A model generated the notes under the pieces. The model was not told where the DNA came from. It ran no database searches and was given only the letters and a program-made list of their open reading frames with translations. 24,116 bases of DNA, from positions 1 to 24,116 of IMG/VR virus record IMGVR_UViG_3300025413_000126; one strand, given 5' to 3'. Positions 15,284 through 23,488 of this stretch are shown here, piece after piece. Every line of letters starts with the position of its first letter. Position 1 is the first letter of the stretch. The position numbers and the translations under genes were made by a program. The stretch comes from a virus.

Positions 15284-15571
15284 TTATCTACTTTGTAGGA
15301 GCGGACATGCAATCGTGAAAAAACTAAGTTCCTTTTCACTTTCAAATCCAATACGTGTATTATAAACTATCGTATTGCTTGAATCTAATGTAATGCCCTG
15401 CCCTACATAGTACCTATTATTTAAATTCTTACGTATCCAAGCATCGATAGATTTGGCTAGCTGTGGATTGAATTTATCTATAGTTGTGTACTTAAAATGA
15501 GGGCAGGCAAACTCAACCCTGCGTAGATTGTAATAATCTAAAGGATTAGGTTTACCATTTTTTAAAGCCAT
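15284..15571 (-). CDS. Small conserved hypothetical protein
   Basis: 95 aa. Starts at an ATG overlapping the VWA gene's stop by one base (TAATG). It has alternating helical and beta-like segments (FACPHFKYTTID, KSIDAWIRKNLNNRYYVG) and two Cys in similar ACPHF / ACPLL contexts near the two ends. Not recognised. Tight linkage to the HExxH/VWA gene suggests shared expression, not necessarily shared function. Confidence 0.7.
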   Translation of the reverse strand: MALKNGKPNPLDYYNLRRVEFACPHFKYTTIDKFNPQLAKSIDAWIRKNLNNRYYVGQGITLDSSNTIVYNTRIGFESEKELSFFTIACPLLQSR

Positions 15572-16755
15572 TATGCAGTTTCCGTAGCAAATTCGTAATA
15601 TGCATATTCACCAAACGGTGGAACAATCTTATCATTTCCATGGATAATGAATACTGTATCACAGTAATTTTCATCACCCCAACTACCCCAAGGATAACCG
15701 TCTGTAAACATGATAAACTTTTTAGGTTGAATATCGTGTTCCTTCATGTATTCCCAGTTGGCATCGAACTCAGTTCCGCCACCACCCATAGGTTCGTAGT
15801 AGTCAAACTCGTCAATGTTATAGCCATCAAAGTCTGCTTCATTATAGACTTTAGTGTCAAAGCACCAAACTTTAATTTTAAAGTCTTTGTACTCTTGCAT
15901 AATACCTTTAATCTCTGACAAGAAGTCTTTAGCTTGCTCGTCACCAATTGAACCTGACATGTCAATTGCTACACAAATATCGATTGTCTCATCATATTGT
16001 GTACCTGGCAAAATAGCGTTCATGTGCCAGCCCTTACGATTAGGACGCATAAATGAATAGTCATTTTTAATAGTGCTTTGGATTTGTTGACGCAAGATTT
16101 CACGCCAATTCATCTTAGGCTCTGTTAGTTCCTTAATCATGCGTTGTACACTAGCAGGAGTGTTACCAGCACCTGCGGCCTGTGCGGCCTGCATTGTAGC
16201 TTCGCGAATCTCATCACGAATTTGTTTTAGTTCTTCTTTGCTATATTTTGGCTGTCCATCTTTGCCATTCTCGCCCCAGTCAATGTGGTCGTCAAGTAAT
16301 TGACCCAACTGGTTAAGTTCTTCTTCATCCATGTCATCATATATCTTGTCATAGATTTCTTCTGCACCCATACCATAGTATTTTGGATCATGGAAGATTT
16401 GAATGCCTTCGATTTTGTGTTCGCCAATACGATCACGTACCAATTGTCCGTTTACACAATAGTCTGCGGCAATATTAAAAATACGTGGGTTGCGAGTTTC
16501 GCGACGACCCATATGATCAAACACATTATGTAAAATTTCGTGAGCAATAACGAACTCAACTTGTTTAACACTAAGTGGTTCAAAAAATTTGCGATTAAAA
16601 TAGATAGTGCGACCGTCGGTAGCGGCAGTGCCCATCCATTCGGAGCCTTCTTCAATTTTTAAGCGTGTAGCCATGTTGCCAAAAAATGGATGGCGAAGTA
16701 GTAGACCCACACGGGCTACGATAATTTTGTCGATAATTGGATCTGTATGTGACAT
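15571..16755 (-). CDS. HExxH metallopeptidase-like / VWA-domain protein (DUF2201-like)
   Basis: 394 aa from ATG16755, chosen because AAGGAG sits at 16761-16766; the longer frame to 16809 would start inside the promoter. The N-terminal domain has the zinc motif HEILH (72-76) in VEFVIAHEILHNVFDHMG. A long acidic helical linker follows (about 130-235), then a VWA domain with MIDAS motif DMSGS (265-269) and GGGGTEFD, TDGYPWG further on. The combination HExxH domain plus VWA-like domain matches the DUF2201 family. It lies directly after a MoxR-type ATPase, and such ATPase/VWA pairs act together in remodelling or metal-insertion complexes in bacteria (family knowledge). The phage substrate is unknown. 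Confidence 0.85.
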   Translation of the reverse strand: MSHTDPIIDKIIVARVGLLLRHPFFGNMATRLKIEEGSEWMGTAATDGRTIYFNRKFFEPLSVKQVEFVIAHEILHNVFDHMGRRETRNPRIFNIAADYCVNGQLVRDRIGEHKIEGIQIFHDPKYYGMGAEEIYDKIYDDMDEEELNQLGQLLDDHIDWGENGKDGQPKYSKEELKQIRDEIREATMQAAQAAGAGNTPASVQRMIKELTEPKMNWREILRQQIQSTIKNDYSFMRPNRKGWHMNAILPGTQYDETIDICVAIDMSGSIGDEQAKDFLSEIKGIMQEYKDFKIKVWCFDTKVYNEADFDGYNIDEFDYYEPMGGGGTEFDANWEYMKEHDIQPKKFIMFTDGYPWGSWGDENYCDTVFIIHGNDKIVPPFGEYAYYEFATETA

Positions 16756-16780
16756 CGATGCTCCTTTACTGTATGTATAT

Positions 16781-17996: not shown

Positions 17997-18400
17997 CTGT
18001 TATCTGTGTTAGCAAGTTCTTTTTCTCGCTCATTCATGGCTTTAATTATGCCAAATTTTCTAATGTCGTCTGAAAACAACATTAGCTCAAAACCTTTGCG
18101 TTCTGAAAAGACAGTGATTGACATTGGAGTTAGGTAATATGGACAATCAACATACCTTTCCAAAAATATGATAGTTTGGGGACTTAGTTCGATTGGTTCA
18201 GTAAATGGAATCTCGTACTCTTTCAAATCCAATTCTTGAACTAAAAATTCATAGCCCTCTTCACTTAAACGAAAATTATTTTGTTTACCTGCTCTAGTAC
18301 TTTGCCACCATTTACGACTGAACAGTTGTAAATTGGCATCATCTGTACTCTTGCCCCATTGTTGCAAAAAAATCTTAGTTAGGGCATCGCGTGTTATCAT
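17993..18400 (-). CDS. Conserved hypothetical phage protein
   Basis: 135 aa. The first third is helical with a KWWQSTRAGKQNNFRLSEEG segment that could be a small winged-helix-like or nucleic-acid-contacting domain. The rest includes ELSPQTIIFLERYVDCPYYL and MSITVFSERKGFELMLFSDD. Similar proteins occur in marine T4-like phages but have no known role. It overlaps its upstream neighbour by 4 bases, and its last codons contain the -35 of the ATPase promoter. Confidence 0.72.
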   Translation of the reverse strand: MITRDALTKIFLQQWGKSTDDANLQLFSRKWWQSTRAGKQNNFRLSEEGYEFLVQELDLKEYEIPFTEPIELSPQTIIFLERYVDCPYYLTPMSITVFSERKGFELMLFSDDIRKFGIIKAMNEREKELANTDNS

Positions 18401-18681
18401 TTTATTATAGTGCCTTGAGTTAGCATTACTACTTGGAAATCGTCGACACCAAAAGTTTGGTTCAATTTCTTTGCCAAATTATGTGCATGGCCAGGATTTG
18501 AGAAAGAAACTTTTTTGTACTTCGGGCCTGGATAGCTGGTAAGGCTATTGAATGACTTTAGATTAAAAGGCTCGTTCTTATAGAATACTGCCCAGATGGC
18601 CTCTGCCTCTAATACTTGTTCGGCTTTGTACGTTTTCTTGTTAATGTGTTCTAATAGTATCTTTGGTTTTGGTCTTGCCAT
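18397..18681 (-). CDS. Conserved hypothetical phage protein
   Basis: 94 aa, Lys-rich: MARPKPKILLEHINKKTYKA, AIWAVFYKNEPFNLKSFNS, YPGPKYKKVSFSNPGHA. I recognise this as a small protein well conserved in cyanophage-type myoviruses, with no assigned function. Its ATG directly follows a perfect 8-bp stem and a late-promoter-like octamer, so its translation may differ between early and late transcripts. Confidence 0.78.
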   Translation of the reverse strand: MARPKPKILLEHINKKTYKAEQVLEAEAIWAVFYKNEPFNLKSFNSLTSYPGPKYKKVSFSNPGHAHNLAKKLNQTFGVDDFQVVMLTQGTIIK

Positions 18682-18682
18682 A

Positions 18683-18709
18683 ATATGCGTCCCGGTAATG
18701 TACGCATAT
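18683..18709 (-). promoter_or_regulatory. Start-codon-proximal hairpin overlapping a late promoter
   Basis: On the - strand ATATGCGT (18709-18702) and ACGCATAT (18690-18683) form a perfect 8-bp stem around an 11-base loop. The ATG at 18681 is one base past the stem, and the only Shine-Dalgarno-like bases (GGGA) fall at the loop/stem border. The 5' arm shares a base with the late-promoter octamer, so transcripts from that promoter would lack most of the arm. Confidence 0.6.
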
Positions 18710-18716
18710 ATTTATC
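18709..18716 (-). promoter_or_regulatory. T4-type late promoter candidate (GATAAATA)
   Basis: GATAAATA on the - strand in the 36-base gap upstream of the gene ending at 18397. It is followed by ...CGTACATTAC and CGGG, a leader also present after the octamer at 19485-19478. Confidence 0.6.
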
Positions 18717-18717
18717 T

Positions 18718-18963
18718 TTATTTGTCTTCAAAACCACCACCATCCATTGTAACACTAATAACTTCAGTATCTTGACTTGTTTTTAATTGGTTAAACAACG
18801 TTTCGTAATCTTGTAGTAGCTTATCTTGTATTTCAGCAAGTGCTAAACTTAACAACCTAGCCGTTTGAATAGGTATTCTTACTTCTTTTTGTTGAGTAAG
18901 TTCAGCACTTCTGATTACTTGAATAAGATTTGTGATTGGTGTTAGATTAATCTGATTTTGCAT
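18718..18963 (-). CDS. Small conserved hypothetical protein
   Basis: 81 aa from ATG18963; a TTG two codons upstream is possible but less likely. Mostly helical: LTPITNLIQVIRSAELTQQK, IPIQTARLLSLALAEIQDKL, with a Gly/Asp-rich end (VTMDGGGFEDK). The start overlaps the upstream gene by 17 bases. No known motif. A late-promoter-like element begins almost at once after its stop. Confidence 0.7.
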   Translation of the reverse strand: MQNQINLTPITNLIQVIRSAELTQQKEVRIPIQTARLLSLALAEIQDKLLQDYETLFNQLKTSQDTEVISVTMDGGGFEDK

Positions 18964-19426
18964 TAGCAAGTACCTGTTTCATTTCAAATTCAGTTTTAAA
19001 AGGTCCACGATACTCATTGCGTTCTAAAGTAATAACCTTAGGACAAAAGCTCTTAACCCAACCTTTATTGAATTTAATTACATAATAGCCTGCACAGTAT
19101 AGACTTTTACTAGCATTGCTCTTGGTAAACAATGGAAGTTTGCGTCTTACATCATACATACTATTATAAGGCTTTACACTTGTGGCAAACCCGTGACATT
19201 CATTAGGTTCTGCTTGTGTAACTTTAACTTTAGTGTTGTTTAAAAAGAATCCTTCTCCAAATTGCTTGGTAAGGTCTTGTTTTTTGTTAAACATAACTTC
19301 ACCTGATGTACTGCTCAGTATGAATTTATTGTTTTCTTTTTTGTGTAGTGTTGCGATCTTAGCGCCGTCTTGCTCTACGATCCAAAACTTACCATCCACA
19401 ATAGGCTTGGCATGTATCTCTGTCAT
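18947..19426 (-). CDS. Conserved hypothetical phage protein
   Basis: 159 aa, basic, probably beta-rich: FWIVEQDGAKIATLHKKENN, FILSSTSGEVMF, GYYVIKFNKGWVKSFCPKV, LERNEYRGPFKTEFEM. Related proteins appear in marine myoviruses and I know no function. AAGGAG lies 7 bases before the ATG. It is preceded by a 61-base leader containing a late-type octamer and a short GC-rich hairpin, so it can probably be expressed late as well as by read-through. Confidence 0.72.
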   Translation of the reverse strand: MTEIHAKPIVDGKFWIVEQDGAKIATLHKKENNKFILSSTSGEVMFNKKQDLTKQFGEGFFLNNTKVKVTQAEPNECHGFATSVKPYNSMYDVRRKLPLFTKSNASKSLYCAGYYVIKFNKGWVKSFCPKVITLERNEYRGPFKTEFEMKQVLANAKSD

Positions 19427-19477
19427 AATTTTCTCCTTAATATTACAAGGGCCCTGACGGCACCCGAGTAATGTACG

Positions 19478-19485
19478 TATTTATC
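19478..19485 (-). promoter_or_regulatory. T4-type late promoter candidate (GATAAATA) with GC-rich leader hairpin
   Basis: GATAAATA on the - strand, 51 bases upstream of ATG19426. It is followed by CGTACATTACTCGGG, the same leader motif as at 18716-18695. The leader then has a bulged hairpin at 19465-19449 (GGGTGCC / GGGCCC) ahead of AAGGAG. Confidence 0.6.
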
Positions 19486-19487
19486 TC

Positions 19488-19991
19488 TCATTCTTCGACA
19501 AAATCTACTACATTGCCGTCAGCATCTGCACAGATAATACGCACGGTTTCGCCAGCTTCGTTTTTAATTTCAATTGGTCCCCAGATCCACCATTCAGTTT
19601 CATCTTGATACCAACCGTCTTCGTCACGATCCTCTAAATCGTAGATGCTGTTTTCATCAATGAACTCTTGAAGCTCATCTTCCTCTTCTTCAGTAAGATC
19701 TACAAACTCAGTATCATACCAGCAACCGCCGTCAAACATTTCAACAAGTTCAACACTTTCAATATTATTAACTTCACAGTCTAGCATATTAATGCTGTCT
19801 TTCTTGCCATCGCCTCCGGGAACAAAAGTAAACTCAAACTCTGGAGGATTGTCGTCTGTAGTTTCTACAGTCCATTCACCATAACGGAAACCGTTAGTAG
19901 TGATAATTTTACCTTCGCCTTCACGTCGAACCCAAAATTCAACTTCTTGACAAGATTTTTTATAATGTGTGCTAACGGTCCATGTTGCCAT
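19488..19991 (-). CDS. Highly acidic conserved hypothetical protein
   Basis: 167 aa with roughly 47 Asp/Glu and only about a dozen Lys/Arg. The most acidic stretch is DLTEEEEDELQEFIDENS. The N-terminal part is beta-like (EFWVRREGEGKIITTNGFRY, FEFTFVPGG) and the end has WWIWGPIEIKN. AGGGG precedes the ATG. Proteins like it are shared among cyanophage-type myoviruses. The charge resembles DNA-mimic proteins, but nothing else supports that role. Confidence 0.75.
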   Translation of the reverse strand: MATWTVSTHYKKSCQEVEFWVRREGEGKIITTNGFRYGEWTVETTDDNPPEFEFTFVPGGDGKKDSINMLDCEVNNIESVELVEMFDGGCWYDTEFVDLTEEEEDELQEFIDENSIYDLEDRDEDGWYQDETEWWIWGPIEIKNEAGETVRIICADADGNVVDFVEE

Positions 19992-21780: not shown

Positions 21781-22638
21781 TTAAGTACCCCATTCGTTTT
21801 TAAATAAAGGCACTTGTAGTCGATCACTGTAGCGTAAGCCTGCCTTCATAGCCAATTCTGCTACACGACGATTGTTTAATGCATAGACACTTTCGACACC
21901 ACCAACTGGCATTAGATATACTGCGCCTGTAAATCCTGCAAGTCTGTAAATGTCCATAACTTCGATAGCTTCATATGCATCATCTTCTGTTGCTACTACA
22001 AATTTAAGATATGTATAGCCTACATCTTGATATTGTAGCAATACATCTGGGCGAATAGCATCTTGACGCTTTTCACCACTATTACTTAACTTAGCACTAA
22101 CACTAAATGTAACATCTCTGGCATACAACTGCCCTTCGCTCTTTTGCCATTTTAGCAAATAACGTTGGAAGTCATCCGTTAATGCTTGAGTTCCGTTTGT
22201 TTCAAATGTAAGTTCTTTCAATGCTAGCATGTTAGGATGATCTAGAAGATCAGGATAAACACGTTGCCAGCCTAATAAAGGTTCTCCACCTGTAATAACT
22301 AAATGTTCGTCTTGCCATTGATGGTATGGGAGAATTTCCATAATACGATCTGCTATAGCATCTGTAGTAAGCATTGGACTAAGGTCCTTAAAACTAGGAT
22401 GCCAGCTAGCATAGCTATCACAGCCAGTAGACACTAGTGGAAGTTCTTCATATTTGTTATATAAATGTACTACAGTAGCAATATCTTCGGCTTCCGTACT
22501 TAACTCACCACGTGGCATACCAAAACCTTGACAGCGGAAATTACATCCAAAAGTTCTAAGGAACACACTGGGCACTCCCATATATCTACCCTCTCCCTGT
22601 ATAGAGTAGAAAAGTTCCGCTATCTTAATCTTTGACAT
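21781..22638 (-). CDS. queE: 7-carboxy-7-deazaguanine synthase QueE, phage type with loop insertion
   Basis: 285 aa. QueE is a radical-SAM enzyme turning 6-carboxy-tetrahydropterin into CDG, the step after FolE and QueD on the route to preQ0 (queuosine tRNA or 7-deazaguanine DNA). Family marks: FYSIQGEGRYMGVPSVFLRT at the N-terminus, HLVITGGEPLLGW, FETNGT and a Pro/Gly-rich C-terminal part. The cluster motif is unusual: Cys32-x3-Cys36 is present, but the third Cys expected three residues on is Phe39. A Cys in the right sequence context (GCDSYASW, Cys73) follows a ~34-residue insertion, giving C-x3-C-x36-C. The start overlaps the HNH gene by 14 bases. Its first 15 codons are repeated, synonymously recoded, upstream at 23265. 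Confidence 0.92.
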   Translation of the reverse strand: MSKIKIAELFYSIQGEGRYMGVPSVFLRTFGCNFRCQGFGMPRGELSTEAEDIATVVHLYNKYEELPLVSTGCDSYASWHPSFKDLSPMLTTDAIADRIMEILPYHQWQDEHLVITGGEPLLGWQRVYPDLLDHPNMLALKELTFETNGTQALTDDFQRYLLKWQKSEGQLYARDVTFSVSAKLSNSGEKRQDAIRPDVLLQYQDVGYTYLKFVVATEDDAYEAIEVMDIYRLAGFTGAVYLMPVGGVESVYALNNRRVAELAMKAGLRYSDRLQVPLFKNEWGT

Positions 22639-23164
22639 TACAATATTCCTTTATTTCATTTAATGACATATATTTTTTCTCACAACTATAACCTTCTTTT
22701 TTATATTTTCCAGGCAAGCACCAATTTCTAATCGTAGTAGCATTAACATTATAATGTTTTCCTGCATGTTGTAAAGACGGAAAACTCCCGTCTGGAGTTA
22801 TAACTAACATTTTCCAATTAGGTCTATCATCACGATCTTTTTTAGTTATAGTATCTTCTATAAACGGAACTTCAAAATTTCTATCTAAATAATCTATTGC
22901 GGTTTTAAGGTATTCAACATTGTCCTGAAATTTTCCAAGAGCTGTATTACAATTAGTACACAACAATCCTCTAACTTTAAGAGTAGTGTGGCAGTGATCT
23001 ACCGCAAGGGCTCTTTCTAACGGATCTGGATTTTTACAAATAGCACATACAAAATTTTGTTCTTTTAGAACAAAATCGTATTGATTTTTGTTTATTCCAA
23101 ATTTTCTCATTAAGTCATTCTTTTTTCTACGGTTTTGTGTTTGTTCTTTAGACTGTTTAGGCAT
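22625..23164 (-). CDS. HNH / endonuclease VII-like putative homing endonuclease
   Basis: 179 aa from ATG23164, which has GAGGAG at good spacing; a GTG at 23209 lies upstream of the late promoter and is rejected. The nuclease core is CAIC (Cys40, Cys43), VDHCHTT (Asp56-His57, His59) and GLLCTNCNTALGKF (Cys69, Cys72, Asn73), the zinc-bound beta-beta-alpha-metal fold of endonuclease VII/HNH proteins. Residues ~122-150 (TPDGSFPSLQHAGKHYNVNA, then TTIRNWC) resemble the helix-turn-helix DNA-binding modules found at the ends of homing endonucleases. It sits between a 17-codon queE fragment and complete queE, its stop lying within queE's first codons. This context supports intronless homing; target cleavage is inferred. 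Confidence 0.85.
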   Translation of the reverse strand: MPKQSKEQTQNRRKKNDLMRKFGINKNQYDFVLKEQNFVCAICKNPDPLERALAVDHCHTTLKVRGLLCTNCNTALGKFQDNVEYLKTAIDYLDRNFEVPFIEDTITKKDRDDRPNWKMLVITPDGSFPSLQHAGKHYNVNATTIRNWCLPGKYKKEGYSCEKKYMSLNEIKEYCNVKD

Positions 23165-23182
23165 AAGTGTCTCCTCACACTT
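23165..23182 (-). promoter_or_regulatory. RBS-sequestering hairpin of the HNH gene
   Basis: On the - strand AAGTGT (23182-23177) and ACACTT (23170-23165) form a 6-bp stem with GAGGAG, the Shine-Dalgarno sequence, as the whole loop. The ATG follows immediately. A second AAGTGT plus an anti-Shine-Dalgarno TCCTC at 23211-23196 could pair with the same GAGGAGACACTT in longer transcripts. Confidence 0.7.
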
Positions 23183-23189
23183 ATTTATA
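23182..23189 (-). promoter_or_regulatory. Perfect T4-type late promoter (TATAAATA) for the HNH gene
   Basis: TATAAATA on the - strand is identical to the T4 late core. Start is expected about 6 bases downstream, near 23176, which is after the 5' arm of the RBS hairpin. Late transcripts would therefore expose GAGGAG, while read-through transcripts would hide it. Confidence 0.75.
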
Positions 23190-23211
23190 CAAGGCGAGGA
23201 AATATACACTT

Positions 23212-23265
23212 TTAATGAACACCTTGTATGCTATAAAATAATTCTGCGATTTTAATTTTACTCAT
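23212..23265 (-). pseudogene. queE: 5' remnant of the displaced resident queE
   Basis: The 17-codon frame reads MSKIKIAELFYSIQG-VH-stop. The first 15 residues are identical to those of the intact queE at 22638, but 11 of 15 codons and 16 of 45 bases differ, all synonymously. Homology ends after the Gly codon. The ATG overlaps the upstream gene's stop (ATGAGTAA), which is the native-style junction expected for the original queE. It may still be translated as a 17-residue leader ahead of the HNH gene. Confidence 0.88.
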
Positions 23266-23488
23266 CTTCATCTTTCTCTAAAAATTGTGTTACTTGATCT
23301 TCTGCGTCTTGTAAAAACTCTGCGTATACTTTGAAAGTAGCAACACCGTTTTTAGCTGTAATATCAAAAGGAATAGTTCCGTTTGGAATCCAATTAGGAC
23401 CTACTTCTCGTTTAATCTCGAACAACTGTAATGTTGAGCTACGAAGACGATTTATTAAATTATCAGTTATGTCTTTGGCGTTTTGCAT
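23258..23488 (-). CDS. Small conserved hypothetical protein
   Basis: 76 aa from ATG23488 (MQNAKDITDNLINRLRSSTL); in-frame upstream starts lie deep in the preceding gene. Helical N-terminus, then PNWIPNGTIPFDITAKNGVA and a strongly acidic helical end (AEDQVTQFLEKDEDE). It overlaps the gene upstream by 26 bases and its stop overlaps the remnant queE start. Not recognised. Confidence 0.7.
   Translation of the reverse strand: MQNAKDITDNLINRLRSSTLQLFEIKREVGPNWIPNGTIPFDITAKNGVATFKVYAEFLQDAEDQVTQFLEKDEDE

Follow-up and report, generated by a model that had tools for sequence, protein, structure and literature searches.

In coliphage T4, the genes e, soc, 49 and I-TevI, like segB and Aeh1 mobE, have a late promoter that lies in or adjoins the 5' arm of a hairpin. 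According to passages of PMC3014915 and PMC2988022, early read-through RNA of e, soc, 49 and I-TevI folds so that the hairpin covers its ribosome binding site, and late RNA is made without the arm. The T4 late octamer spans positions -13 to -6, and changes at -13 are tolerated, Aeh1 having a/gC there (passages of PMC2988020). An octamer so placed puts +1 at the sixth base past it, and every predicted +1 given below carries this T4 spacing over to the phages studied here. Additionally, seg43(25) of Aeromonas phage 25 has a stable hairpin just upstream of a ribosome binding site that it leaves unhidden (a passage of PMC2988022), and 5'-terminal stem-loops stabilise the ompA and papA mRNAs of E. 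coli, to go by reference titles in PMC3997798.

The window analysed here is an entire IMG/VR virus record of 24,116 bases. Read from the sequence, several genes on its plus strand up to 13.4 kb resemble tail-fibre genes, and the minus strand from 13.4 kb carries genes like thyX and queE (both named by eye) and an exonuclease. A scan of the minus strand from 13.4 to 24.1 kb found no terminator-like sites, and the genes there form a same-strand block. A perfect sigma-70 promoter (TTGACA and TATAAT 17 apart, with TG) lies within this block at 16809-16781 on the minus strand, ahead of the gene at 15571-16761. By protein searches, gene A, gene B and the exonuclease have their closest cultured relatives among jumbo phages of the PA5oct group, and gene A additionally matches Phosso, Atu_ph07 and SCTP-2; the gene order queE, RNaseH, B, A, ATPase is identical in PA5oct. 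Where these protein searches succeeded, a DNA search of cultured phages with 17.9-20.2 kb and 22.3-23.6 kb returned zero matches. Neither leader reaches the gathering score of any Rfam model in 18600-19600, the sole match there with E below 1 being to a microRNA model on the opposite strand and elsewhere (17.5 bits against 77 required). We recognised no description of these leaders in the open-licence literature, a search that a transcriptome study in a subscription journal would escape; the words promoter, sigma and hairpin are absent from the main text of the MIJ3 genome paper.

Two octamers within the minus-strand block, at sites A and B, are in our judgement likely to be T4-type late promoters, with a lock at site A that opens late and no lock at site B. 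Within this explanation we infer where the RNAs start (from T4), that transcription reads through, that translation is repressed at all and what the hairpin at site B is for. The features concerned, with a comparison case elsewhere in the window, are these:

18709 to 18716, minus strand: T4-type late promoter octamer of site A, GATAAATA, a type present in every gene A leader collected
18704 to 18695, minus strand: 10-mer of site A, CGTACATTAC, seen in the sequence
18702 to 18709, minus strand: 5' arm of the site A hairpin, ATATGCGT; the late +1 predicted from T4 spacing, about 18703, falls within it
18691 to 18701, minus strand: loop of the site A hairpin, ACATTACCGGG, with a Shine-Dalgarno-like GGGA at its 3' end, the last A of which is in the arm
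18683 to 18690, minus strand: 3' arm of the site A hairpin, ACGCATAT, between the Shine-Dalgarno sequence and the ATG
18397 to 18681, minus strand: gene A, 94 aa, of no known family, with homologues in the PA5oct group and the three further phages named above
19478 to 19485, minus strand: T4-type late promoter octamer of site B, GATAAATA, from the sequence and the leaders of relatives
19477 to 19468, minus strand: 10-mer of site B, CGTACATTAC, directly after the octamer
19442 to 19472, minus strand: tetraloop hairpin of site B, outer stem AUUAC...GUAAU, inner part GCC-GUCA-GGGC; its first paired base, 19472, is the predicted late +1
19433 to 19438, minus strand: Shine-Dalgarno sequence of site B, AAGGAG, outside the hairpin
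18947 to 19426, minus strand: gene B, 159 aa, weakly matching phrog_15898 (unknown function)
23163 to 23189, minus strand: comparison case, TATAAATA with an 8-bp hairpin, AUAAGUGU/ACACUUAU, and loop GAGGAG, ahead of an endonuclease VII-like HNH gene

Site A and the leader of this HNH gene share with T4 e, soc, 49 and I-TevI the arrangement of late promoter and hairpin. Site A differs from the T4 cases in that gene A belongs to no named family, the phage is a relative of PA5oct-like jumbo phages and the lock is a predicted one; moreover, its 3' arm lies between the Shine-Dalgarno sequence and the AUG, with the Shine-Dalgarno sequence in the loop. Site B is similar to seg43(25) in its non-hiding hairpin upstream of the ribosome binding site, but here the hairpin is coupled to a late octamer at a nearly fixed distance, the foot of its stem coincides with the predicted +1, and it shows covariation among relatives; the genes are unrelated in kind. 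Like the ompA and papA stem-loops, it would stand at or a few bases from the 5' end, although at site B that position follows from the predicted +1 and the message is a phage late mRNA. As we read them, site A is a known T4 device on an uncharacterised gene and site B is less familiar.

Both copies of GATAAATA come close to the T4 late consensus, TATAAATA. In the window alone the octamer is weak evidence, with four copies found against 1.9 expected and as many in 12 of 100 shuffles (the plus-strand copies lie 20 and 24 nt ahead of ORFs 2528 and 6739), so the case depends on the relatives, and it is they, rather than the window, that exclude chance. Seven long relatives, 1.06 Mb in total, contain 71 copies of GATAAATA, shuffles giving 76; 49 of the 71 sit outside called ORFs, which occupy 94-97% of the DNA and leave a remainder of 3-6%, and many of these non-ORF copies are 18-30 nt upstream of an ATG. 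Furthermore, a gp55-type late sigma (phrog_234, a family identified using T4 gp55 itself in place of phrog_177, a wrong guess) is encoded in 8/8 related records, the window fragment not being among these, with E from 4e-18 to 8e-27, and in 0/14 controls. One gp45-type clamp family (phrog_223) matched 0/8 related records, but it had no matches in any control either. The placement outside ORFs and the gp55-type sigma support the octamers behaving as late promoters. The alternative that they are chance AT-rich matches, and the leaders ordinary intergenic spacers, fits the non-significant count within the window; it is already contradicted by the octamer in all 81 gene A leaders described below, by the concentration outside ORFs, by the presence of the late sigma and by compensatory changes in the hairpins, and we give it next to no chance. 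Facing octamers, GTGCGTATATAAATAC...TATTTATC, about 15-20 nt apart, occur in G007, G008, G010 and G002 near 5.5 kb, 5 kb, 98.6 kb and 2.9 kb, respectively (strand coordinates), and make opposed, overlapping late promoters in several relatives.

At site A, ATATGCGT (18709-18702) is perfectly complementary to ACGCATAT (18690-18683), and the stem runs from the octamer's last base to one base (T18682) short of the ATG at 18681. The earlier note had described this perfect 8-bp stem exactly, and its coordinates, 18716 and 19485 on the minus strand, are right to the base. It had also called the genes behind the two leaders unrelated, which agrees with the lack of similarity between A and B (BLASTP E = 10).

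Conservation of site A was assessed in 81 leaders (71 unique), namely the window and the best 80 of 598 relatives; seven loci (L003, L004, L006, L021, L028, L031, L035) that share one common other sequence with different spacing, unrelated by eye, were excluded. All 81 have a NNTAAATA octamer 18-32 nt upstream of the start (exactly GATAAATA in 71), and 79 have GGA, GAG or AGG within 16 nt of the start. The fold of the window's own leader beats shuffles only modestly (z -1.7). Because MAFFT misaligned the right arm, we examined the stem leader by leader and tabulated two columns. In 62 of the 71 unique leaders a perfect stem of 7 bp or more lies between the octamer region and the start codon, and in nine it is missing; shuffling the right part of the leaders over 200 rounds gave a mean of 6 such stems and a maximum of 12. 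The one clearly variable pair of the stem is G-C in 50 unique leaders, A-U in 11, G-U in 3 and A-C in 0, the remaining leaders lacking an arm (three) or having a different left arm (four). On a gene A tree of 81 rows, 74 of them with both letters scored, the left letter of this pair undergoes a minimum of 10 changes on the best tree and of four on well-supported branches, where the right letter follows the left in 3.3 of four pairs on average and the opposite direction never occurs; with four pairs only, this last test (median p 0.25) cannot reach significance. Leaders L125, L128, L137 and L142, on other contigs, also carry a palindrome, for example GTAAACTACGTAGTTTAC, just upstream of the A octamer.

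Opening the region from -14 to +4 is predicted to cost 10.5 kcal/mol on read-through RNA and 3.8 kcal/mol on late RNA, as means of the 81 leaders; for the window the values are 10.4 and 3.0 kcal/mol. That read-through RNA costs more in 81/81 leaders is partly built in, because a longer RNA has more pairing options. Fairer controls are a scrambled left arm, with which read-through RNA costs a mean of 5.7 kcal/mol in the same 81 leaders and 3.7 kcal/mol in the window, and 93 other octamer leaders, with medians of 4.8 (read-through) and 2.9 kcal/mol (late). Some leaders depart from the pattern: L134 and L142, in which the usual stem is absent, are predicted to form another hairpin from upstream of the octamer (12.9-13.8 vs 0.8-1.0 kcal/mol), L075, L133, L138 and L144 differ by just 2 to 4.5 kcal/mol, and L143 has no predicted lock and nearly no difference (4.4 vs 4.1 kcal/mol). 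Structure prediction and covariation together support a conserved site A hairpin with compensatory changes, predicted to mask the Shine-Dalgarno sequence and/or the AUG on read-through RNA only. The hairpin probably keeps gene A untranslated until late infection.

The inverted repeat adjoining the octamer could also be read as a DNA operator, on which a dimeric protein bound to ATGCGT...ACGCAT represses the promoter and the hairpin is a by-product; T4 offers a precedent, since I-TevI binds an operator over its own late promoter (a passage of PMC2988022). G-U pairs are tolerated, however, both at the covarying pair (the three unique leaders above) and in others such as L093, L096 and L139, the variation of the octamer-start distance from 18 to 32 nt changes the arm spacing, and the position of the 3' arm follows that of the start codon. 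Such properties suit an RNA better than a protein dimer on DNA, and we regard the operator as quite improbable.

In the preferred explanation, the RNA lock, both late promoters would sit within a gene block transcribed from upstream, in keeping with the lack of terminator-like sites found on that strand. On read-through RNA, the last base of the site A octamer and the next seven would pair with the bases just before the AUG, and gene A would be made poorly from this paired start region. A gp55-type sigma starting RNA at the octamer would yield a transcript that begins within the left arm, T4 spacing leaving two of the eight arm bases; the hairpin could then not form, and gene A would be translated. 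Site B, being unlocked, could be translated early from read-through RNA, and its late promoter would provide a second, late supply whose RNA starts with a stable tetraloop hairpin.

Cultured phages retain the octamer more widely than the predicted lock. Gene A of PA5oct (whose group is Arenbergviridae), Phosso, Atu_ph07 and SCTP-2 has, as in the window, an upstream octamer, N(A/T)TAAATA, here 27-55 nt before the ATG. A clear lock is predicted only in Atu_ph07 (12.9 vs 3.2 kcal/mol, read-through against late), with little or none in PA5oct (7.6 vs 4.2), Phosso (5.9 vs 3.5) and SCTP-2 (4.1 vs 4.8). By eye, PA5oct has a terminator-like hairpin with paired A/T tracts ahead of its gene A promoter, one that the scan did not list. 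The idea that a terminator replaces the lock fits PA5oct alone by eye, and the scan gives 3/80 upstream of gene A in relatives; it was dropped. Pfam has nothing for gene A or gene B. Protein A is predicted to fold as strand-strand-strand-helix-strand (pLDDT 74.6), and since its model has zero PDB matches at E up to 0.001, no function was assigned.

Site B has a conserved hairpin of its own that does not block the start and that the earlier note had missed. Among the best 80 of 593 gene B relatives, 64 have an octamer within 60 nt of gene B and 16 have none there; in seven of these 16, as seen by eye, the hairpin lies farther upstream, ahead of an extra small ORF. The loops are mostly UNCG-like or else GUCA, with a free AAGGAG downstream. 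In an alignment of 34 of the 35 unique leaders (L221, of TATG type, omitted), 91% of cells are paired. The covariation score of 0.261 vs 0.159 and the 32 vs 10.6 cells changed on both sides were both unmatched in 500 shuffles. Five pairs have a double change vs 3.1 (reached by 36/500 shuffles), and the count of pair types is not raised (11 vs 12.0). Three inner pairs fail in 10-16 of the 34 leaders, largely because the GUCA group pairs differently. RNAalifold unaided draws eight pairs at the site. The hairpin scarcely affects the start region (0.9 vs 0.2 kcal/mol) and so does not hide the start.

With T4 spacing, transcription of 26 of 40 unique B-type leaders is predicted to start on the first paired base of the hairpin, so the late gene B mRNA should begin as a hairpin, and 30 of the 40 have at most four unpaired 5' bases. 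The hairpin probably forms the very start of the late message. As for its purpose, a 5'-terminal stabiliser, which would slow RppH- and RNase E-type decay from the 5' end, is a reading we hold tentatively, at somewhat less than even chances. The first 36 nt of the predicted late RNA fold at a mean of -10.9 kcal/mol, against -1.8 kcal/mol in 99 other octamer leaders; in passages of PMC3997798, a review, B. subtilis RppH, which may not be the host's enzyme, is said to require two or more unpaired nucleotides at the 5' end, and the stabilisation of E. coli mRNA by 5' stem-loops is covered by work cited there. Against this, in 10 of the 40 leaders (TATG type and L221) the 5' end has 5 to 10 unpaired bases, and other late leaders dispense with a hairpin. 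Alternatively, a regulator of gene B, an RNA-binding protein of the phage or of its host, might bind the hairpin, a reading that seems unlikely. It would account for the conserved tetraloop and the conserved spacing to the Shine-Dalgarno sequence, and T4 gp43 is an autoregulatory RNA binder on a leader hairpin (a passage of PMC3014915); but in the seven relatives with an intervening small ORF the hairpin stays with the promoter, and the loop type varies while the pairing persists, which implies that structure rather than sequence matters. Late re-expression of gene B is likely, and from the RppH requirement and the stabilising stem-loops together we infer, as a best guess, that the re-expressed message has a protected 5' end.

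Are the two sites copies of one cassette? The exact 10-mer CGTACATTAC has two copies in the window, each just after an octamer, and the earlier note had taken it to be conserved there and the whole to be a repeated regulatory cassette. In relatives, the exact 10-mer is present in just 4/140 unique A and 7/35 unique B leaders, so it is not a conserved unit there. The pairing part of CGTACATTAC is CGT in A and ATTAC in B. Moreover, A and B cores within one contig resemble each other no more than shuffled cores do (6.98 vs 6.95 of 10 positions, p = 0.37, n = 55), in a comparison whose B pattern required ATTA and did not reach loss of those letters; the shared 10-mer as the site of a common trans-acting factor was rejected on this lack of co-variation. 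The A pattern (octamer, ATGCGTA, ACGCAT) has at least 80 loci, and among the matches listed 80/80 precede the gene A family. A covariance model of B finds one strong site per record in 6/8 records searched whole (the window and seven relatives) and no strong site in G001 and G002. The regulatory reading of the earlier note is supported for the late promoters and for a conserved site A hairpin predicted to hide the start, and is not supported as a single repeated cassette. The two leaders, each of them real, are distinct devices that in this phage happen to agree over ten differently used bases.

The late-promoter/hairpin arrangement also precedes endonuclease genes in this phage family. The leader of the endonuclease VII-like HNH gene (PF02945, E 9e-24 by Pfam) has a predicted opening cost of 12.2 vs 2.2 kcal/mol (read-through vs late). 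Its ORF (22625-23270, minus strand) sits between a short ORF start (MSKIKIAELFYSIQGVH, then a stop) and queE. The short ORF start and queE both encode MSKIKIAELFYSIQG. The codons for it differ, which makes the queE start look like a recoded version and not a copy, as though queE had been split by a homing endonuclease and its former start had stayed in place. At L168:15679-16440 (plus strand) and the matching place in G012, the gene directly after gp55 carries TATAAATA within a long hairpin ahead of its start (11.1-11.5 vs 1.9 kcal/mol in the two relatives); its counterpart in G002, the one scanned, matches GIY-YIG homing endonucleases. At L257:16995-18467 (minus strand), a gene matching virion and tail-fibre families has a leader, GATAAATACTCGAAAGAGAGTGTTTATCCATG, in which the hairpin's left arm contains the whole octamer and its loop the Shine-Dalgarno sequence; none of the other leaders among 99 has so large a predicted difference (20.8 vs 2.4 kcal/mol). 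A genome-wide lock was considered and rejected. Among the 99 octamer leaders, drawn from the window and seven relatives, only nine reach a stem score of 16 (1.4 expected by shuffling; 19/925 control starts), and six of the nine belong to gene A, so the lock is not general.

These comparisons extend the late-unlocked switch of T4, of which a handful of cases are known, to a gene of jumbo phages that is conserved and uncharacterised, in a group that includes cultured laboratory phages and in which natural compensatory mutations provide support. The predicted lock implies that gene A acts late only, which would be a first clue to its role. If the start at site B matches that of T4, the leaders suggest that these phages encode a late mRNA whose first bases form a hairpin. 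The same octamer may then serve two opposite hairpin settings, a rather doubtful conjecture: with the hairpin foot on the octamer, the promoter's start would destroy the hairpin and free the start codon, and with the foot six bases on, the hairpin would become the 5' end and seal the late mRNA against decay. If this is true, sliding a hairpin by about six bases would turn a switch for late translation into a stabiliser of late mRNA.
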